DNA of 64,000 nucleotides, taken from positions 248,001-312,000 of the forward strand of contig NZ_QEYD01000002.1 in assembly GCF_003122215.1 (NCBI RefSeq), read 5' to 3'. This document shows, piece after piece, positions 44,753 through 52,669 of this stretch. Source of the stretch: Pararhodobacter marinus (GTDB lineage Bacteria; Pseudomonadota; Alphaproteobacteria; Rhodobacterales; Rhodobacteraceae). Within the stretch, counting starts at the first letter, position 1; each line of letters opens with the position of its first letter. The notes under the pieces are model-generated. The model worked only from the letters and a program-made list of their open reading frames with translations, had not been told where the DNA came from and ran no database searches. The translations under genes were made by a program, and so were the position numbers.

Positions 44753-45547
44753 TCAGCGGCCCTTCCAGACCGGGTCGCGTTTCTCGGTGAAGGCGCGCTG
44801 GCCCTCGTGCAGGTCCTCGGAGCCATAGAGCCGGTCGACGGTGGCGAATTGCCGCTTGGTGATCCGGTTGAGCGCATCCTGAAATCGCATGTCCTCGGCC
44901 TCGCGCACGATCTCCTTGATCGCGGCGAAAACCAGAGGCGGGCCGGATTCCAGATGGCGGGCCAGGTCCCAGGCCTTGGTCATCAGCTGGGCCTGGGGGA
45001 CAATCTCCTTGATCAGGCCCCACCGCTGCGCCTCCTCGGCATCGAACCAGCGGCCTGTGAGCAGAAGATCCATCGCGACGTGATAGGGGATCCGCTTGGG
45101 CAGACGGAGCGTCGCCGCATCCGCCACGGTGCCAGAGCGGATCTCGGGCAGGGCGAAGGTGGCCTGGTCGGCGGCAAGGATCAGGTCGCAGCTGAGCGCC
45201 AGCTCGAACCCGCCGCCGCAGCAGATCCCGTTGACGGCGGCGATCACGGGCTTGTTGAGATGCGGCAATTCCTGCAAGCCTCCGAAGCCGCCGACGCCGT
45301 AATCGCCGTCGACCTCATCGCCCTCCGCCGCGGCTTTCAGATCCCAGCCGGGGCAGAAGAATTTCTCGCCCGCGCCGGTGAGGATGGCCACGCGGAGCGT
45401 CTCGTCATCGCGGAAGTCCTTGAAGACCTCGCCCATGATCCGGCTGGTGGCAAGGTCGATCGCATTCGCCTTCGGGCGATCCAGCGTGACCTCGAGGATC
45501 CCGCCCTCGCGCCGGGTTCTGATCGGGCCGTCGGTCCGGTCGTTCAT
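44753..45547 (-). CDS. caiD: Crotonobetainyl-CoA hydratase (CaiD-type)
   Basis: 264 residues of the crotonase fold. It matches carnitinyl-CoA dehydratase features that I recall from CaiD: TLDRPKANAIDLATS, GEVFKDFRDDETLRVAILTGAGEKFF, GWDLKAAAEGD and the ending AFTEKRDPVWKGR. Catalytic-region residues are in CGGGFELALSCD and FALPEIRSG. It would hydrate crotonobetainyl-CoA to carnitinyl-CoA. GGAGAG lies before the ATG. It overlaps the acyl-CoA synthetase by ATGA, and the carnitine dehydrogenase fusion is two genes upstream, so the assignment is well supported by context. Confidence 0.9.
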   Translation of the reverse strand: MNDRTDGPIRTRREGGILEVTLDRPKANAIDLATSRIMGEVFKDFRDDETLRVAILTGAGEKFFCPGWDLKAAAEGDEVDGDYGVGGFGGLQELPHLNKPVIAAVNGICCGGGFELALSCDLILAADQATFALPEIRSGTVADAATLRLPKRIPYHVAMDLLLTGRWFDAEEAQRWGLIKEIVPQAQLMTKAWDLARHLESGPPLVFAAIKEIVREAEDMRFQDALNRITKRQFATVDRLYGSEDLHEGQRAFTEKRDPVWKGR

Positions 45548-47562
45548 GTCTCTCTCCATATCACTGCATCCACGGCGACCGCGCGATCCTGCGTGAGGAT
45601 CAGTGGGTTCACCTCGATTTCCCGCAAGGCGGGGTCGGTCGCCATCATCGCCTGCATCGCCAGCGCCGCATCGATGGCTGCGCCCAAAGCCGGGCGCGGG
45701 CGCCCGCGCCAGCCGTCCAGCAGCGGCCAGAGCCTGAGCCGCCGCAAGGCCGCCGCGATTTCGGGCCCCGTGACCGGCGCCACCAGCGTGACCGTATCGG
45801 CCAGAAGCTCGGCCGTCACGCCCCCCAGACCCAGCGTCAGCGTGGCGCCATAGACCGGATCGCGGCGGATCCCGATCAACAGCTCTGCCACGCCGTCCGT
45901 CACCATTTCTTCCAGAAGGTAGCCCTGCACGCCCGGCATCGGCGGCTCGGCGGCGGGATCGGTGACGCCCAGCCTGACCGCCCCGGCCTCGGTCTTGTGC
46001 GCAAGCCCGAGGCCTTTGAGCGCAAAGGGCCCTACAAGCCCGGATCGGTCGAGCGCACCGGGCGCTGGCGCGGTCACACCCCGCGGCACGGCGATGCCGG
46101 CACGGGCCAACAAGGCCTTGGCCTTGGCCTCGTCCAGCATCTCGGCCGGGGATGCGCCGACCAAAGGCCAGGGCCGCCAGCCGGGGTCGACCGAATCCGT
46201 GCGCAGCGCCGACAGCGCCTCGAGCGCGGTCTCGATCCCCATCAGCGGAACCACGCCGCGCGCGATCATCGCCTCGGCGCGGGGCTCGTCGAAATTCTCG
46301 GGCATCGACGAGACCGGGAAGGCCGGCTTGCCGGTCCGCGCCTGCGCGGCCTCGATGGCCTGCAACGCCGCCTCGAAGCTCGACGGGTCGCAGCGGTCGG
46401 GTCGCGGCGGGTCGATCAGGTATATCCCGGCGTCATACCCGTCGAGCATGGCCGCGAAAACCTCGGTCGTCTTCTCCAGATCGCCCCAGATGAACGTGTG
46501 GTAATCGAGCGGGTTCGCCAGCATCACCAGCGGTCCCAGCACGGCGCCCAGCTTTTCCTTCTGCGCGTCGGAGGGCGGGTCGAAGGTAATCCCGGCAGCG
46601 GCGCCCAGATCCGCTACCAGCCCGGCTTCGCCCCCCGAACAGGACAGCGAACACAGGCGGCCGCCCAGTCCGGGCCCGTGGACATGCACGATCTTCAGCG
46701 CCTCGATCAAGCCGCCCAGGGTGGCGACCTCGGCCACGCCCAGCTGCCGCAGGAAGGCGCGCGACGCCGCGCCGCCACCGGCCAGCGCTGCCGTGTGGCT
46801 TGCCGCCGCCGCGCGCGAGGCTTCGGTCTTGCCCGATTTCAGCGCGACGATCCCCTTGCCCGCCGCGCGCGCGGCTTCGGCCAGTTCCGCGAAGGCGCCG
46901 GCATCGTCGAAGCCCTCGACATAGATCCCCAGAGCCGTCACGCGCGCATCGGCCAGCAAAGCCTCGCCCAGCTCGGCCAGACCGACCTGCGCCGCGTTGC
47001 CCAAGCAGGCGACATAGGCCACCGGCAGGCCGCGCGCCTGCATCGTCAGGTTGATGACGATGTTCGAGGACTGGCTGATCAGCGCGACGCCGCGTTCCAC
47101 GCGCTTGCCGCCATGCTGGTCGGGCCAAAGCAGCGCCCCGTCCAGATAATTGATCACCCCGTAGCAATTGGGCCCGAGGATCGGCATGTCGCCGGCCGCC
47201 TCGACCAGCTGCGCCTGCAGGGCCGCCTCGCCGCTTTCGCCCCAACCCGAGGCGAAACAGATCGCGCCGCCCGCGCCCATGGCCGATAATTCGGCCACCA
47301 CGTCGAGCGTCGCGTGGCGGTTGACGCCGATGAACACCGCGTCCGGCGCCTCGGGCAAATCGGCAAGGCGTCGGAAACAGGCCACGCCGCCGATCTCGTC
47401 ACGCGTCGGATGCACCGGCCAGACCGGCCCGTCGAAGCCCATCTTCCGGCATTGCTCGATCACGTTGGCCGCCCAGCCCGCGCCCAGAACGGCGATCGAG
47501 CGAGGCCGCATAAGCCGCGAGAGCCGCGTGTCCTGTCGCAAGGGGCGGGCCAAGCTTGCCAT
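45544..47562 (-). CDS. NDP-forming acyl-CoA synthetase (CoA-binding plus ATP-grasp)
   Basis: 672 residues. CoA-binding domain (PRSIAVLGAGWAANVIEQC, VNRHATLDVVAEL, GPNCYGVINY), a succinyl-CoA-ligase-like middle (VALISQSSNIVINLTMQARG, VALKSGKTEASRAAAASHTAALAGG with the phospho-His region) and a C-terminal ATP-grasp domain (KALLARAGIAVPRGV, ALKGLGLAHKTEAGAVRLG, EVNPLIL). This is the acetyl/pimeloyl-CoA synthetase type that forms acyl-CoA with release of ADP (or GDP). In this operon it probably activates gamma-butyrobetaine, crotonobetaine or carnitine. The usual carnitine CoA ligase (AMP-forming, CaiC/BbtA) or CoA transferase (CaiB) is not seen. The Shine-Dalgarno and ATG come from a repeat copy. 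Confidence 0.88.
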   Translation of the reverse strand: MASLARPLRQDTRLSRLMRPRSIAVLGAGWAANVIEQCRKMGFDGPVWPVHPTRDEIGGVACFRRLADLPEAPDAVFIGVNRHATLDVVAELSAMGAGGAICFASGWGESGEAALQAQLVEAAGDMPILGPNCYGVINYLDGALLWPDQHGGKRVERGVALISQSSNIVINLTMQARGLPVAYVACLGNAAQVGLAELGEALLADARVTALGIYVEGFDDAGAFAELAEAARAAGKGIVALKSGKTEASRAAAASHTAALAGGGAASRAFLRQLGVAEVATLGGLIEALKIVHVHGPGLGGRLCSLSCSGGEAGLVADLGAAAGITFDPPSDAQKEKLGAVLGPLVMLANPLDYHTFIWGDLEKTTEVFAAMLDGYDAGIYLIDPPRPDRCDPSSFEAALQAIEAAQARTGKPAFPVSSMPENFDEPRAEAMIARGVVPLMGIETALEALSALRTDSVDPGWRPWPLVGASPAEMLDEAKAKALLARAGIAVPRGVTAPAPGALDRSGLVGPFALKGLGLAHKTEAGAVRLGVTDPAAEPPMPGVQGYLLEEMVTDGVAELLIGIRRDPVYGATLTLGLGGVTAELLADTVTLVAPVTGPEIAAALRRLRLWPLLDGWRGRPRPALGAAIDAALAMQAMMATDPALREIEVNPLILTQDRAVAVDAVIWRET

Positions 47563-47645
47563 CTTTGTTCTCCAAATATCCTCGGGGGTTTGCCAAGGGG
47601 GCAGACAGCCCCCTTGGTCGGGGGGCGCGGGGGGCTGGCCCCCCG
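47561..47645 (-). repeat. Dispersed intergenic repeat, copy 5 (provides start of synthetase gene)
   Basis: On the minus strand: two hairpins (GCGGGGGGCCAGCCCCCCGC and CAAGGGGGCTGTCTGCCCCCTTG) then AACCCCCGAGGATATTTGG and AGAACAAAGATG. The final ATG is the start codon of the acyl-CoA synthetase gene and the GGAGAAC inside the tail is its Shine-Dalgarno. The element fills the whole gap after the acyl-CoA dehydrogenase. Confidence 0.75.
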
Positions 47646-47646
47646 C

Positions 47647-48810
47647 TTACCCGCCGACCGATCGCAGCATCTCGCGCGAAATGATGTGGCGCTGGATCTC
47701 CGACGTCCCCTCCCAGATCCGTTCGACCCTTGCGTCGCGCCAGATGCGTTCGAGCGGCAATTCGTCCATCAGGCCCATCCCGCCATGGATCTGGATCGCC
47801 TCGTCCGCGATCATCGCCAATGCCTCGGTCGCTTTCAGCTTGGCCATCGCCATGTCGCCATCGGTGACGCTGCCCTCGTCGAATTTCCACGCGGCCTCGT
47901 AGGTCAGAAGTTCGGCCGCCTTCAGCTCCAGCGCCATATCGGCCAGCTTGAAGCTGACGCCCTGGAACTTGCCGATCTGCTGGCCGAACTGCTTGCGTTC
48001 GGCGGCGTAGGACAAAGCGTGGTCGAGCGCCCGCTGCGCCCGCCCGATCGAGGTCGCGGCGACCTGCAGCCGGGTCGCGCCCAGCCAGTCATTGGCCACG
48101 TCGAACCCCTTGTGGACCTCGCCCAGGATATTCCGGGCCGGGACGCGGCAATCGTCGAATTCCAGAACCGAGTTGGTATAGCCGCGATGCGAGACGTTGC
48201 GGTAGCCGTCGCGCACGGTGAAGCCCTTGGTGCCCTTGTCGACGAAGAAGGCGGTGATCTTCTTCTTCTTGCCGCGCGGCGTGTCCTCTTCGCCGGTGGC
48301 CAGGAAAGCGATGGTGAAGCCCGCGACATCGGCATGGCTGATGAAATGCTTGGTGCCGTTCAGGATCCAGTCCTCGCCGTCCTGCCGGGCCGAGGCGCTC
48401 ATGCCGCGCAGGTCGGATCCGGCGCCCGGCTCGGTCATGGCCAGGCAGTCCCAGGTCTCGCCGCGGATGCAGGGCATGAGGTATTTCTCACGCTGCTCGG
48501 GCGTGCCGGCCAGCAGGATGTTCGACGGCCGCGCCACGCAGGTCCAGTGCAGCGCGTAATTCGTCCGGCCCAGCTCGCGCTCGTAGAGCAGCCACGACAG
48601 CGTATCGAGTCCCGCGCCGCCGACCTCTTCGGGCATGTTGGCGGCATAGAGCCCGGCCTCCATGGCCTTCTTCTGCAACTCGCGGATCAATTCCATCGGC
48701 AGATGGCCGGTCCGCTCGACCAGCGCTTCGTGCGGATAAAGCTCGGTCTCGACGAAGGCGCGCGTCGTATCGACGATCATGCGCTGTTCTTCGGTCAGTC
48801 CAAAATGCAT
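47647..48810 (-). CDS. Acyl-CoA dehydrogenase, probable gamma-butyrobetainyl-CoA dehydrogenase
   Basis: 387 residues. FAD-dependent acyl-CoA dehydrogenase with N-terminal helices, the beta domain (LAMTEPGAGSDLRGM, WILNGTKHFISHAD) and the C-terminal bundle (AAERKQFGQQIGKFQG, IQIHGGMGLMDELPLER, ERIWEGTSEIQRHIISREML). The catalytic Glu position is in WEGTSEIQ. In this operon the expected reaction is gamma-butyrobetainyl-CoA to crotonobetainyl-CoA; that substrate is inferred from the CaiD-like and LcdH neighbours, not from residues. AAGGAG lies before the ATG. The 90 bases upstream, to lcdH, hold nothing recognised. Confidence 0.87.
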   Translation of the reverse strand: MHFGLTEEQRMIVDTTRAFVETELYPHEALVERTGHLPMELIRELQKKAMEAGLYAANMPEEVGGAGLDTLSWLLYERELGRTNYALHWTCVARPSNILLAGTPEQREKYLMPCIRGETWDCLAMTEPGAGSDLRGMSASARQDGEDWILNGTKHFISHADVAGFTIAFLATGEEDTPRGKKKKITAFFVDKGTKGFTVRDGYRNVSHRGYTNSVLEFDDCRVPARNILGEVHKGFDVANDWLGATRLQVAATSIGRAQRALDHALSYAAERKQFGQQIGKFQGVSFKLADMALELKAAELLTYEAAWKFDEGSVTDGDMAMAKLKATEALAMIADEAIQIHGGMGLMDELPLERIWRDARVERIWEGTSEIQRHIISREMLRSVGG

Positions 48811-48900
48811 CTTTGTCAGCTCCTTACGGGTCGACGTTATGGTGTCGGGCCACCGGCGCCCGCGGCATTCCGGGCACCTTGGGAAGCAGGTCGCCCCGGG

Positions 48901-50367
48901 TCACCCCCGCGGCGCGCCCACGAAACGACCGGCGGCGGCGGGACGCTCCAGCGCCTTGTGTGCCTCGGCGATGGGCATCAGCCGGTCCAGCACTGCGGGT
49001 TTCGCCGCGCAGGTCTTGCCCGCTTTCATGTCCACATGCAGCAGCATCTGCTCGATCGAGGCGACCAGCGTGTCGCCGCGCTGGATGCGGATGAACAGGT
49101 GGAGCCGCTTCTCGTCGGCCGACAGAACCTGAACCGAACCGGTCAGCCGGTCGCCCAGCTTCGCTTCGCCCGCGTGCAGAATGTGGCTTTCGGCGGTGTA
49201 GTAGCTGTGACCGCCCGCGACATAGTCGAGCCCGGCCCCGATATGGCGCAGGAACGCATCGCAAGTCTCTGACGAGGCGAACAGATACCGGCTTTCGGTC
49301 ATGTGCCCGTTATAGTCGATCCAGCCGGGCAGCACCTGCATATGCGCCATCACCATCGGCGCGGCGGTCTCGGGCGTGGGATCGGGCGCGGTCGCACGGC
49401 GGCGGGCGTCATGCTCCAGAAGCACCTTGCCGGCGCCCCAGTTGCTGTCTTTCAGCACCCGCATGAAGCCGATCAGGTTGCGGTCGCGAATACGTTCCAA
49501 GTCGCGGATCGAATGCATGCCCGATTGCGCATCCGACTGCCCGGCGATCAGCTCGACCAGTTCGTCATTGTATTCCGGGACGTCCATGAGCCGCGTCCAC
49601 GGCCAGCTCAGGCAGGGGCCGAACTGGTCGAGGAAGTGCTTCATCCCGGCTTCACCGCCGGCGATGCGATAGGTTTCGAACAGACCCATCTGACCCCAGC
49701 GCAGGCCGAAGCCCATGCGGATCGCCTCGTCGATTTCCTCGGTCGTGGCGACGCCGTCCTTGACCAGCCACAGCGCCTCGCGCCAGACGGCTTCCAGGAA
49801 ACGGTCGGCGATGTGGGCGTCGATCTCCTTGCGCACATGGAGTGGGAACATCCCGATTTCGCGCAGGATTTCCTTTGCGTTTTCAATCACTCCCGAGTCG
49901 TTCTTGTCGGACGGGACGATTTCGGCCAAGGGCAACAGATAGACCGGGTTGAACGGATGCGCGACGAAGATTGTCGCGGGATTGGCGGCGTTTTCCTGCA
50001 ATTGCGAGGGCTTGAAGCCCGACGTGGATGACCCCATCGGCACATGCGGCGCCGATTGCTGGATCTGGGCATAGACGCGGTGTTTCAGGTCCAGTCGCTC
50101 CGAGATGGATTCCTGAATATAATCAGCGCCTTCGACGGCGTCGTGAATGCTGTCTTCGAAGGTCAGCGTGCCTTCTTCCGGCATCGGGACGTCGGCCAGA
50201 GCGGGCAGCGCGGCGCGGGCATTGGCCAGAACCTCGGCCACCTTGCGGGGGGCTTCGGGATCGGGGTCGAAGACCGACACGTTCCAGCCCGAGAGCAGGA
50301 AGCGGGCGGCCCAGCCACCCCCGATGACGCCCCCACCGATGATGGCGGCCTTGCGATTGTTGGACAT
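48901..50367 (-). CDS. lcdH: Fused L-carnitine dehydrogenase / betainyl-CoA thioesterase
   Basis: 488 residues, two enzymes in one chain. Residues 1-~320 are a 3-hydroxyacyl-CoA-dehydrogenase-like NAD-binding protein (AAIIGGGVIGGGWAARFLLSG, VAHPFNPVYLLPLAEIVPS, KEIDAHIADRFLEAVWREAL), converting L-carnitine to 3-dehydrocarnitine. From ~340 a hotdog-fold thioesterase follows (VLPGWIDYNGHMTESRYL, the D and H region of 4-hydroxybenzoyl-CoA-thioesterase type) that would release glycine betaine from betainyl-CoA. GGAGAAC precedes the ATG at 50367. The same fusion is known from other alphaproteobacteria; in Pseudomonas the functions are separate (cdhA, cdhC). It follows the BKACE gene in the operon. 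Confidence 0.93.
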   Translation of the reverse strand: MSNNRKAAIIGGGVIGGGWAARFLLSGWNVSVFDPDPEAPRKVAEVLANARAALPALADVPMPEEGTLTFEDSIHDAVEGADYIQESISERLDLKHRVYAQIQQSAPHVPMGSSTSGFKPSQLQENAANPATIFVAHPFNPVYLLPLAEIVPSDKNDSGVIENAKEILREIGMFPLHVRKEIDAHIADRFLEAVWREALWLVKDGVATTEEIDEAIRMGFGLRWGQMGLFETYRIAGGEAGMKHFLDQFGPCLSWPWTRLMDVPEYNDELVELIAGQSDAQSGMHSIRDLERIRDRNLIGFMRVLKDSNWGAGKVLLEHDARRRATAPDPTPETAAPMVMAHMQVLPGWIDYNGHMTESRYLFASSETCDAFLRHIGAGLDYVAGGHSYYTAESHILHAGEAKLGDRLTGSVQVLSADEKRLHLFIRIQRGDTLVASIEQMLLHVDMKAGKTCAAKPAVLDRLMPIAEAHKALERPAAAGRFVGAPRG

Positions 50368-50380
50368 GGAGTTCTCCGGG

Positions 50381-50710
50381 TCAGTCGACGCAGATGTCGA
50401 CGCGTTCGCCATCTTCGGCGAGGAACGCGTAACAGCCGAACGGGTAGTTGTAGATTGCGCAGGTGCGCGTGTCGGCGTCGCAATAGGACGAGCAGTCGGA
50501 CGCGACCGAACAGCTTTCACCGGCCTGAGGCGAGCGTGTCGCGCACATCTCGTTGCCGCTGAGCCCGGCGATCAGGACCTGTCCGCCCGCCGCCTCGCAT
50601 TGCGCCCGTGCGTCGGGTGCAAGCCGGTCGGCCGGAGGCGGGGAATCGTCGCCGGACGGGGTGCAGGCGGCAAGGGCCAGCGCGACCGACAGGATCAGCG
50701 GCAATTTCAC
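50381..50710 (-). CDS. Small Cys-rich lipoprotein inside the carnitine operon
   Basis: 109 residues from a GTG that overlaps the BKACE stop (GTGA). Lipoprotein signal (KLPLILSVALALAAC). The mature chain has a Pro/Asp-rich linker and then eight further cysteines (AQCEAAGG, EMCATR, SCSVASDCSSYCDADTRTCAIY, FGCYAF, DICVD), enough for four disulfides. I do not recognise the family. Its position between the carnitine cleavage enzyme and lcdH may be accidental or may relate to substrate capture at the membrane. The GTG start is supported by overlap only. Confidence 0.7.
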   Translation of the reverse strand: MKLPLILSVALALAACTPSGDDSPPPADRLAPDARAQCEAAGGQVLIAGLSGNEMCATRSPQAGESCSVASDCSSYCDADTRTCAIYNYPFGCYAFLAEDGERVDICVD

Positions 50711-51615
50711 AGCGGCGCCCTCTTTTCCAGCTTCAGCCGGGTGCGCACCTCGTCGGGGGTGATGACGCGCGCGCCCATGTTCTCGGCGATGGTGACGGCG
50801 CGCTCGACCAGCTGCGCGTTGGTCGCCAGCACGCCCTTGTCGAGCCACAGGTTGTCTTCCAGACCCACCCGCACATTGCCTCCCGCAAGGATCGAGGCCG
50901 CGACATAGGCCATCTGGTGACGTCCCAGGGCGAAGGCCGACCAGTGCCAGTCGGCGGGCACGTTGTTCACCATCGCCATGAAAGTGTTCAGATCGTCCGG
51001 CGCCCCCCACGGCACGCCCATGCAAAGCTGCACCAGCACCGGGTCCTTGATGATCCCTTCGCTGACCAGTTGCTTGGCGAACCACAGATGGCCGGTATCG
51101 AAGGCTTCGATCTCGATCTGCACACCCGAATCGGTCATCCGCTGCGCCATGTCGCGCAACATGCCGGGCGTGTTGACCATGACGTAATCGGCTTCGGCGA
51201 AGTTCATCGTGCCGCAATCGAGGGTGCAGATCTCGGGCCGGCAATCGACGACGTGCTGCACGCGCTCGGCGGCGCCGGCCATGTCGGATTTCTGCGACAT
51301 GCGGTTCATCGCCTCGGTGCCGTCGAACATCAGGTCGCCGCCCATCCCGGCGGTCAGGTTCAGGACAACATCGGTGCCCGAATCGCGGATCCGCTCGGTC
51401 ACCTCGCGGTAAAGCGCCGGATCGCGCGAGGGCACGCCCGTTTCGGGGTCGCGGACGTGGCAATGGACGATGGCGGCACCCGCCTTGGCCGCGTCGATCG
51501 CGCTGTCGGCGATCTGCTGCGGCGAGCGGGGCACATGCGGGCTGCGGTCCTGCGTCCCGCCCGAGCCGGTGATGGCGGCGGTGATGAAGACCTCGCGGTT
51601 CATGGTCAGAGGCAT
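50707..51615 (-). CDS. BKACE family enzyme, 3-dehydrocarnitine:acetyl-CoA cleavage
   Basis: 302 residues, TIM-barrel beta-keto acid cleavage enzyme (DUF849). Zinc ligands are expected in IVHCHVRDPETG (H-x-H) and in FDTGHLWFAK, and the GLEDNLWLDKG stretch is typical. The enzyme family moves the beta-keto acid acetoacetate unit to acetyl-CoA; next to carnitine dehydrogenase the predicted reaction is 3-dehydrocarnitine plus acetyl-CoA to betainyl-CoA plus acetoacetate. GGGAG lies 6 bases before the ATG at 51615. First gene of the operon, with a divergent GlxA-type regulator. It is the counterpart of Pseudomonas CdhB. Confidence 0.92.
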   Translation of the reverse strand: MPLTMNREVFITAAITGSGGTQDRSPHVPRSPQQIADSAIDAAKAGAAIVHCHVRDPETGVPSRDPALYREVTERIRDSGTDVVLNLTAGMGGDLMFDGTEAMNRMSQKSDMAGAAERVQHVVDCRPEICTLDCGTMNFAEADYVMVNTPGMLRDMAQRMTDSGVQIEIEAFDTGHLWFAKQLVSEGIIKDPVLVQLCMGVPWGAPDDLNTFMAMVNNVPADWHWSAFALGRHQMAYVAASILAGGNVRVGLEDNLWLDKGVLATNAQLVERAVTIAENMGARVITPDEVRTRLKLEKRAPL

Positions 51616-51650
51616 TGGTTTCTCCCGTGTTCGGGCGCAGCGTAACAGGG

Positions 51651-51679
51651 TTGCGGCATAAGAATTGGCGCAGTACGAA
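51651..51679 (+). promoter_or_regulatory. Candidate promoter of the GlxA-type regulator
   Basis: TTGCGG (51651-51656), 17 bases, TACGAA (51674-51679). A start site seven bases on falls on the A of the ATG at 51686, so the transcript could be leaderless. The spacer of the divergent pair is only about 70 bases, so any operator for the BKACE operon must lie here too; no convincing palindrome was found. Confidence 0.3.
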
Positions 51680-51685
51680 ATCGAT

Positions 51686-52669
51686 ATGGCAAATTCCGAA
51701 ACCATCTTTGCGCCGTCCAACGCCACGCTGGAGATCGCCGTGCTGGTCCTTCCGCGCGCCTCGATCCTCGAAGTGGCCTCGGTGCTGGACCCGATCCGCT
51801 CGGCCAACCGGCATCTGGGGCGCGAAGGCTTCCGCTGGCGCGTGGTCTCGCCCGATGGTGGGCCGGTGCCCTTGACCTGCGGGATCGAACTGCCCGCGAA
51901 GGGCGGGTTGGCGGCAGCCGAGGGCGCGGACGTGCTGATCGCGGTGGCGGGCTACGGGCAGTCCGAGGGGGCGCCGCGCAGCGTCATCGCCGGTCTGCGG
52001 CGCATGGCCGGGCGGTTCCGCGCGGTCGGGGGGGTCGATGCGGGGCCGTGGGTGCTGGCGCGCGCGGGCTTGCTGGATGGCCACCGCGCGACCGTCCACT
52101 GGGAGGATATGGAGGATTTCGCCGCCGCCTTTCCCGCCGTGGACGTGGTGGCGGACCGCTATGTCGTCTCGCGCAACCGGTTCACGGCGGGCGGCGCGGT
52201 GCCAGCGGCGGACCTGATGCTGCATCTGATCGGCAGCCGTTGCGGGGCGGGCGTTGCGGGACAGGTCGCGGATTCGTTCCTGTACGACGCCCGCGCGGAC
52301 GGCGCCCGGCCGCAGCGCACGGGGCTGGTCCCGGGCGCGCGCGACCCGAGGCTTTCGGCCGCGCTGACGCTGATGAGCCGCCATCTGGAAGAGCCGCTGA
52401 GTCTTGAGCGGATCGCGCAGGATCAGGGGGTCGGCGTCCGTCGGCTGGAGCAAGTGTTCCGCGACGGGCTGGGGCAGGGACCGGGTGCCGCCTATCTGGA
52501 ATTACGGCTGCAGGGCGCGCGGCGGATGATGGCCGATACCGCGCATCCGGTGCAGGAAATTGCCCTGCGCTTCGGCTTCAGCGACCAGTCCAGTTTTTCG
52601 CGCGCGTTCCGGCGGCGTTTCGGTCACCCCCCGCGCGCGATGAGAAGCGCGCGGACGGGGACGGGCTGA
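51686..52669 (+). CDS. GlxA/CdhR-type AraC family transcriptional regulator
   Basis: 327 residues. N-terminal DJ-1/PfpI-like domain (IAVLVLPRASILEVASVLDPIRSANRH, VLIAVAGYGQSEGAP) and C-terminal AraC helix-turn-helix pair (LSLERIAQDQGVGVRRLEQVFR and VQEIALRFGFSDQSSFSRAFRRRFG). This is the class to which CdhR of Pseudomonas belongs, which senses carnitine and activates carnitine catabolism. Divergent placement from the BKACE-lcdH operon supports that role. The start is uncertain: ATG at 51686 without Shine-Dalgarno, or TTG at 51665. Confidence 0.88.
   Translation: MANSETIFAPSNATLEIAVLVLPRASILEVASVLDPIRSANRHLGREGFRWRVVSPDGGPVPLTCGIELPAKGGLAAAEGADVLIAVAGYGQSEGAPRSVIAGLRRMAGRFRAVGGVDAGPWVLARAGLLDGHRATVHWEDMEDFAAAFPAVDVVADRYVVSRNRFTAGGAVPAADLMLHLIGSRCGAGVAGQVADSFLYDARADGARPQRTGLVPGARDPRLSAALTLMSRHLEEPLSLERIAQDQGVGVRRLEQVFRDGLGQGPGAAYLELRLQGARRMMADTAHPVQEIALRFGFSDQSSFSRAFRRRFGHPPRAMRSARTGTG

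Follow-up and report, generated by a model that had tools for sequence, protein, structure and literature searches.

A predicted gamma-butyrobetaine and carnitine operon in Pararhodobacter marinus matches a gene cluster of Sinorhizobium meliloti

Sinorhizobium meliloti, a soil bacterium, has a gene cluster for gamma-butyrobetaine (GBB) and carnitine, with bcoAB and SM2011_c01638, whose primary description is said to be that of Bazire et al. 2019. BcoAB is described as a gamma-butyrobetaine:CoA ligase used with ATP, Mg, and CoA (PNAS 2021, PMC8364193), and SM2011_c01638 is cited both as carnitine dehydrogenase and as the enzyme taking betainyl-CoA to glycine betaine (PMC12482172). We analyzed a 64,000-nucleotide stretch of the Pararhodobacter marinus genome (the window) and found an operon that is real and not new: it is common in Rhodobacteraceae and matches the cluster studied in S. 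meliloti. The operon lies on the minus strand, runs from 51615 to 44753, and contains five enzyme genes, in the order BKACE, dehydrogenase-thioesterase fusion, acyl-CoA dehydrogenase, NDP-forming synthetase, and CaiD-like hydratase. The neighborhood also comprises a small lipoprotein gene and a divergent regulator:

51665..52669, plus strand: GlxA/GbdR/CdhR-type regulator, 334 aa, TTG start; DJ-1/PfpI and AraC HTH domains (PF01965 + PF12833)
51616..51664, no strand: 49-nt gap between the divergent starts, defined by geometry only
50707..51615, minus strand: BKACE (PF05853, 340 bits)
50381..50713, minus strand: small Cys-rich lipoprotein-like gene, 110 aa, with a GTG start overlapping the BKACE stop; no assigned function
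48901..50367, minus strand: L-carnitine 3-dehydrogenase fused to a hot-dog thioesterase, 488 aa (NF005716, PF02737, PF00725, PF13279)
47647..48810, minus strand: acyl-CoA dehydrogenase, 387 aa (PF00441/02770/02771), predicted to convert gamma-butyrobetainyl-CoA to crotonobetainyl-CoA
45544..47562, minus strand: NDP-forming acyl-CoA synthetase (BcoAB type), one chain, 672 aa (Pfam domains)
44753..45559, minus strand: CaiD-like putative crotonobetainyl-CoA hydratase, 268 aa (NF002936)

Gene products and control of the operon

The sequence-only reading had placed the five enzyme genes in one minus-strand operon, and we recovered them there with the domains it had assigned, at nearly the same coordinates and tightly spaced. 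It had not named the lipoprotein gene or the divergent regulator. The BKACE and lipoprotein genes overlap by 7 nt and the synthetase and CaiD genes by 16 nt, while the spacers measure 90 nt between the fusion and acyl-CoA dehydrogenase genes and 84 nt between the latter and the synthetase gene; these overlaps and short gaps make the spacing compatible with a single operon. No transporter genes were seen beside it, in contrast to the rhizobial clusters. Elsewhere, the genome holds one BCCT transporter gene and a GbcA-like Rieske gene (504 bits with the GbcA model, below its cut-off of 670).

The BKACE protein is 70–71% identical to the rhizobial copies and has at residue 51 the sequence HCHVRD, which we take to be the metal-binding motif. 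The 110-aa lipoprotein-like product that follows gave no Pfam match at E 0.001. For the fusion gene, the best start is the ATG at 50367, giving 488 aa, and the queries made with it began two codons earlier, at 50373. The proposed fusion was borne out, as the 3HCDH_N, 3HCDH, and 4HBT_2 domains all lie in one reading frame and the NCBIfam model NF005716 "carnitine 3-dehydrogenase" matches the protein over model positions 2–494 with 753 bits (cut-off 592). Because this model spans 495 positions, such fusions already have a curated family of their own. The protein carries the motifs VAHPFNP and WIDYNGHM, and its gene is single-copy in the genome, the next match being 26% identical.

The acyl-CoA dehydrogenase (64–67% identical to the rhizobial copies, EGTSEIQR motif at 367) scores 190 bits against the CaiA crotonobetainyl-CoA dehydrogenase model NF002885, below the cut-off of 540, and its top-scoring curated model, acryloyl-CoA reductase, reaches 294 bits, below the cut-off of 640. 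The CaiD-like protein is 76–77% identical to rhizobial CaiD and has two Glu-bearing motifs (GGGFELA at 115 and LPEI at 137); its 317 bits with NF002936 are below the cut-off of 500, yet the model is the top one among 73 matching NCBIfam models.

The regulator, for which an alternative ATG start is possible at 51686, has GbdR (NF052371) as its best NCBIfam model, at 200 bits and thus below the cut-off of 480, and we take a related, CdhR-like GATase1-AraC regulator to be a likelier kind than GbdR. S. meliloti and Rhizobium etli each have a divergent GlxA-family regulator in the corresponding position. The 49-nt gap is likely the control region, and the regulator probably controls the operon.

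Predicted pathway and conservation of the gene set

We consider it very probable that the operon encodes a bco-cdh pathway for GBB and carnitine of the kind present in S. meliloti, in the form it takes in Rhodobacteraceae. From the gene content, gene order, domains, catalytic motifs, and orthology that we observed, we infer all of the reactions, their substrates, and that the thioesterase is used twice. The NDP-forming synthetase would phosphorylate its residue H256 with ATP and pass the phosphate to GBB (possibly to crotonobetaine or carnitine), the CoA thioester then being made; the expected reaction is ATP + gamma-butyrobetaine + CoA -> gamma-butyrobetainyl-CoA + ADP + Pi. The acyl-CoA dehydrogenase would yield crotonobetainyl-CoA and the CaiD-like hydratase carnitinyl-CoA, from which the thioesterase domain may release L-carnitine. 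The dehydrogenase domain would oxidize this to 3-dehydrocarnitine, which BKACE, with acetyl-CoA, would presumably convert to betainyl-CoA and acetoacetate, and the same thioesterase domain would finally release glycine betaine.

The sequence-only reading had also proposed looking for the gene set in other genomes, and the set was found both in related loci and in three rhizobial records. We counted linkage in 80 named related loci, which were the best among 201 confirmed candidates. The gene immediately downstream of the synthetase is CaiD in 76/76 testable loci, the one immediately upstream is the acyl-CoA dehydrogenase in 73/74, and LcdH and BKACE lie further upstream in 57/63. Dehydrogenase and thioesterase share one open frame in 62 of the 64 loci where both were seen, and 12 of the 80 loci have a relative of the lipoprotein between BKACE and lcdH. 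The operon of some relatives also contains an SDR gene (7984–8739 in L008, Rhodobacter sp. NTK016B). At greater distance, in 29 class-level loci, the testable cases have CaiD downstream in 21/28 and the acyl-CoA dehydrogenase upstream in 22/27. The order regulator, BKACE, dehydrogenase-thioesterase, acyl-CoA dehydrogenase, NDP-forming synthetase, and CaiD recurs in S. meliloti Ak57, R. etli CFN 42, and Neorhizobium, the five enzymes being 48–77% identical to those of R. etli (synthetase 48%, CaiD 76%). Of 120 Rhodobacteraceae genomes, 90 matched the dehydrogenase and 80 the synthetase, which makes the route common in the family; 78 of those 80 also had the dehydrogenase.

The counts 76/76, 73/74, and 57/63 argue that the grouping is not due to chance. 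The first two make it very unlikely that the synthetase block is there fortuitously and has another acid as its substrate, as does the retention of the linkage from Rhodobacteraceae to rhizobia, although more distant members of the clade have other neighbors; those of L139, for example, are a histone-deacetylase-like hydrolase, a BhcA-like aminotransferase, and an amidohydrolase. Activation and carnitine breakdown do not always go together: the block stands without LcdH and BKACE nearby in 6/63 testable loci, and the records of Paracoccus aminovorans and Ruegeria TM1040 have BKACE and LcdH with no synthetase nearby.

In a rival reading, carnitine or crotonobetaine would be the main substrate of the synthetase, the acyl-CoA dehydrogenase, and CaiD, for example for recycling D-carnitine or crotonobetaine into L-carnitine, with GBB secondary. 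By their 16-nt overlap, CaiD and the synthetase are the most tightly coupled genes of the operon, and a broad-range betaine synthetase would serve all three acids. We nevertheless judge this reading improbable, since an acyl-CoA dehydrogenase directly upstream in nearly every testable locus fits the oxidation of a saturated acyl-CoA and BcoAB is described as a ligase for GBB.

The synthetase clade and its relation to DddX

The synthetase is NDP-forming by class, as had been claimed, since CoA_binding_2, Succ_CoA_lig, and ATP-grasp_5 each score above the Pfam cut-off. We built a tree from 63 hand-picked rows of 126 (125 extracted rows plus DddX). Omissions included L097 and L098 for length and L125 and L119 for a synthetase in two frames; the S. 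meliloti Ak57 copy, which lies in two frames, is not in the tree. The genome has seven PF13607 matches, of which five paralogues were put in the tree and one (L007) was left out. The window protein and four rhizobial copies (Sinorhizobium sp. M103, R. etli, R. lusitanum, and Neorhizobium) fell inside a 57-row clade with support 100/100, and the five paralogues fell outside it. The phospho-His of the swinging loop, H256, is conserved in 57/57 clade members and in 5/5 paralogues from the same genome.

The closest solved structure is that of DddX, the ATP-dependent DMSP lyase (7cm9), which is the top match both by sequence (200 bits) and by fold (TM 0.86/0.83 with an AlphaFold2 model). For folding, we used an alignment of 23 of the 26 rows first proposed; pLDDT was 85.8 overall and weak at 341–360. 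The two proteins share the NDP-forming fold, the domain order, and the catalytic His (H292 of DddX aligns with H256). The sulfonium-binding Trp391 aligned with W359, in the weakly modeled stretch, in 10/10 MAFFT runs and hhalign, phmmer alone giving H355. The aromatic partner of Trp391, Phe435, aligned with F396 in 7/10 MAFFT runs and hhalign. All this would suit a DddX-type DMSP lyase or an enzyme otherwise acting on DMSP. In contrast, the lyase base Glu432 is not conserved, its place being taken by P393, and the neighboring genes belong to carnitine metabolism; action on DMSP is thus very unlikely. Identity to DddX is about 25–28%. Glu occupies the Glu432 column in 1/57 clade members and some position within columns 429–435 in 11/57, so a shifted base may exist.

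We do not take W359 to prove that GBB is the substrate. All 57 clade members have it, including those with unrelated neighbors (L139/L140), so that it marks the clade only, and it lies in the loop that is modeled with low confidence. One could tentatively imagine, though we think it rather doubtful, that BcoAB-type synthetases and DddX form a single "onium-acid" NDP-forming branch. The shared Trp (W359/Trp391) and an aromatic partner would read the cationic head; DddX would later have gained a thioester-breaking base, giving acryloyl-CoA, with BcoAB stopping at the thioester. If so, clade members with other neighbors, such as L139/L140, would activate further betaine-like acids. The link to DddX offers a testable idea of how such synthetases recognize quaternary or sulfonium acids. 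In a weak literature search for papers connecting DddX with carnitine, DddX appeared, among the matches listed, only in the DddX paper itself.

Comparison with described systems

The earlier interpretation stands in part. A pathway from GBB through carnitine to glycine betaine remains the prediction favored by the domains, curated models, motifs, gene order, and S. meliloti orthology, and the novelty of its activator is not supported. The ADP-type activator had been regarded as a departure from known systems; we reject NDP-type activation as a new variant, because S. meliloti, R. etli, and Neorhizobium have the same cluster and BcoAB is already described as an ATP-using GBB:CoA ligase. The sole synthetase of the S. 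meliloti cluster is orthologous to the window enzyme, and we infer that BcoAB is a protein of this type, an identification drawn from the gene cluster. Although its name might hint at two separate subunits, we rejected that reading: in Sinorhizobium sp. M103, whose copy is 95% identical in DNA to the one in S. meliloti Ak57, the synthetase forms a single chain of 695 aa. NDP-type activation of GBB appears to be the usual form in Rhodobacteraceae and rhizobia.

Carnitine catabolism in Pseudomonas (CdhA, CdhB, CdhC, and CdhR) uses a dehydrogenase, a thioesterase, a BKACE, and a GATase1-AraC regulator, as in the window, with dehydrogenase and thioesterase as separate genes, unlike the window fusion; we know of no GBB activation block in that system. 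The caiTABCDE operon of E. coli shares with the window CaiD and CaiA homologues and the thioesters of GBB, crotonobetaine, and carnitine. There, CaiC is an AMP-forming ligase and CaiB a CoA transferase, and the window operon has neither a CaiC- nor a CaiB-type gene. The window differs from the S. meliloti cluster in having no adjacent ABC transporter genes, in the small lipoprotein gene between BKACE and lcdH, and in the synthetase, which is only 47–51% identical. Common to both are the gene order, the fused dehydrogenase-thioesterase, BKACE, the acyl-CoA dehydrogenase, CaiD, and an NDP-forming synthetase in one chain, as read from the M103 copy.

Operon layout and gene families

The gene set of the sequence-only reading, five enzyme genes including a fused dehydrogenase-thioesterase, was borne out by genes, order and domains:

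51615 to 44753, minus strand: BKACE (50707..51615), lipoprotein-like gene, fused dehydrogenase-thioesterase (48901..50367), acyl-CoA dehydrogenase, NDP-forming synthetase (45544..47562), CaiD-like hydratase
From 49 nt upstream of the operon, divergent: regulator of DJ-1/PfpI + AraC type, by its domains

As neighbours overlap by 7 and 16 nt or are separated by gaps of 90 and 84 nt, the six minus-strand genes likely form a single operon. The fused dehydrogenase scored 753 bits on the curated NCBIfam model for carnitine 3-dehydrogenase (NF005716), above its cut-off of 592. Three other proteins stayed below the thresholds set for CaiD, CaiA and GbdR: the CaiD-like protein with 317/500 bits against CaiD, the acyl-CoA dehydrogenase with 190/540 against CaiA, and the regulator with 200/480 against GbdR. 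All five enzymes carry recognisable motifs, which we take to be catalytic in the roles assigned, the synthetase His being the exception, placed by alignment with the ATP-dependent DMSP lyase DddX. Further along the pathway, the genome contains one GbcA-like Rieske gene (504 bits, under the cut-off of 670), a second, weaker Rieske match, and one BCCT gene, which clears the general BCCT subfamily cut-off but not the ones set for betaine and carnitine transporters; neither the GbcA-like nor the BCCT gene lies near the operon.

The lipoprotein-like gene (50381-50713) is small and Cys-rich; 12 of 80 loci have a relative at this position between BKACE and lcdH. Three loci have an HD-domain protein between BKACE and lcdH (L038:5100-5714, L043:6138-6758 and L049:6138-6755), with a faint likeness to PhnZ/TmpB oxygenases (38.6 bits against a cut-off of 214.6), and in several other relatives a lipocalin gene (PF08212) fills this region (e.g., L011:5254-5790). 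Of 66 loci with both flanking genes visible, 34 carry a short-chain dehydrogenase (SDR) gene in the interval from the dehydrogenase-thioesterase to the acyl-CoA dehydrogenase and 4 carry it at another place in the locus; in 28 none was seen. The closest relative of the window has it (L008:7984-8739); the window lacks it at 48811-48900, and 41% identity is the highest reached by an SDR anywhere else in that genome. The SDR of the related loci could be a D-carnitine dehydrogenase.

Gene linkage and spread

The same gene set recurs in other genomes. Named genomes were scanned and yielded 201 confirmed synthetase relatives; in the best 80 of these, CaiD lies directly downstream of the synthetase in 76/76 testable cases, the acyl-CoA dehydrogenase directly upstream in 73/74 (the exception being L069), and LcdH and BKACE upstream in 57/63, missing at L022, L069 and L080-L083. 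Dehydrogenase and thioesterase domains could both be seen in 64 loci, and in 62 of them they share one open frame. Within the window's family, the dehydrogenase matched in 90 of 120 genomes (E <= 1e-60) and the synthetase in 80 (E <= 1e-100), 78 of the latter also having the dehydrogenase when the two match tables were compared. For 86 of the 90, the best dehydrogenase match extends beyond residue 450 and thus reaches the thioesterase part. Some of these family genomes, G154 for one, have the two genes at distant sites. Class-wide, the synthetase matched in 53 of 385 sampled genomes (E <= 1e-60); 29 loci were retained besides that of the window, with CaiD downstream in 21/28 testable cases and the acyl-CoA dehydrogenase upstream in 22/27.

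The synthetase and its likeness to DddX

We computed a tree of 63 rows, including five paralogues from the same genome and DddX. One clade, with support 100/100, unites the window synthetase with four copies from rhizobia and 52 further rows and leaves the five paralogues outside; DddX sits on a long branch and its placement is unsure. DddX is the closest solved sequence (200 bits, other NDP-forming enzymes reaching at most 151), a lead that may be partly due to domain order, and the best structural match of the AlphaFold2 model (pLDDT 85.8, pTM 0.86), with TM 0.86/0.83.

Passages of PMC8163506 describe DddX His292 as the phosphorylated residue, Trp391 and Phe435 as making, in a docked model backed by mutants, cation-pi contacts to the sulfonium, and Glu432 as the lyase base. 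In our alignment, the His292 column holds His in 57/57 clade members and 5/5 paralogues; the Trp391 column holds Trp in 57/57 members and none of the five paralogues. The Phe435 column is aromatic in 55/57 members; Glu occupies the Glu432 column in only 1/57. Trp391 pairs with W359 in 10/10 MAFFT runs and in hhalign, and Phe435 with F396 in 7/10 and in hhalign. Several observations count against this parallel: a single pairwise phmmer alignment pairs Trp391 with H355, W359 falls within a low-confidence stretch of the model (341-360; means 58 and 51), 11/57 members carry a Glu in the vicinity of the base column, and the clade Trp is also present in members with carnitine-unrelated neighbours, such as L139. 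Neighbouring the clade members at L139 and L140 are genes for a hydrolase of histone-deacetylase-like type, an aminotransferase resembling BhcA, an amidohydrolase and a TAXI-TRAP binding protein, the family search covering L139; these synthetases perhaps activate another acid. A weak literature search found no earlier statement of the DddX link, the only part of our analysis so placed.

Proposed pathway and rhizobial precedent

Most likely, ATP would phosphorylate H256 of the synthetase, the phosphate would move to the carboxylate of gamma-butyrobetaine (GBB), and CoA would then displace it. Dehydrogenation, hydration and hydrolysis of the thioester would yield L-carnitine, which dehydrogenase, BKACE and thioesterase would convert to glycine betaine. 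The analysis shows the parts, their order and their orthology; each reaction and substrate is inferred. The existence of the operon stands, and it probably does what was first proposed, taking GBB or crotonobetaine to carnitine and on to glycine betaine. Bazire et al. in 2019 reportedly described GBB conversion to glycine betaine in seven steps by five enzymes.

The claim that an ADP-type activator departs from known systems was not supported. The order regulator, BKACE, fused dehydrogenase, acyl-CoA dehydrogenase, synthetase, CaiD is common to Neorhizobium, R. etli CFN 42 and S. meliloti Ak57. Of nine plasmid-collection regions inspected for having the dehydrogenase or synthetase, seven contain the synthetase block, and two, from Paracoccus aminovorans and Ruegeria TM1040, have BKACE and the dehydrogenase without it. 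The Ak57 record, CP090106.1, is labelled pSymB and filed as a plasmid, with a chromosome-like length of 3.72 Mb. The synthetase is split over two frames in Ak57 (L125:10001-12036) and R. leguminosarum Ta6 (L119:11688-13710), with no annotated protein in either record; relative to Sinorhizobium sp. M103, where it is one chain, the Ak57 copy lacks one base at 95% DNA identity. Since the locus tags look similar (LZK), a sequencing artefact is possible in both.

In the methods of Rajakovich et al. 2021 (PMC8364193), S. meliloti BcoAB is named gamma-butyrobetaine:CoA ligase and was used with ATP, MgCl2 and CoA, the plasmid having been provided by A. Perret. A passage of PMC12482172, citing Bazire et al. 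2019, describes SM2011_c01638 as a carnitine dehydrogenase also acting on betainyl-CoA. On our inference, BcoAB and the NDP-forming enzyme of the S. meliloti cluster are one protein. In alphaproteobacteria, an NDP-forming activator is what the GBB pathway ordinarily has, with S. meliloti as a precedent.
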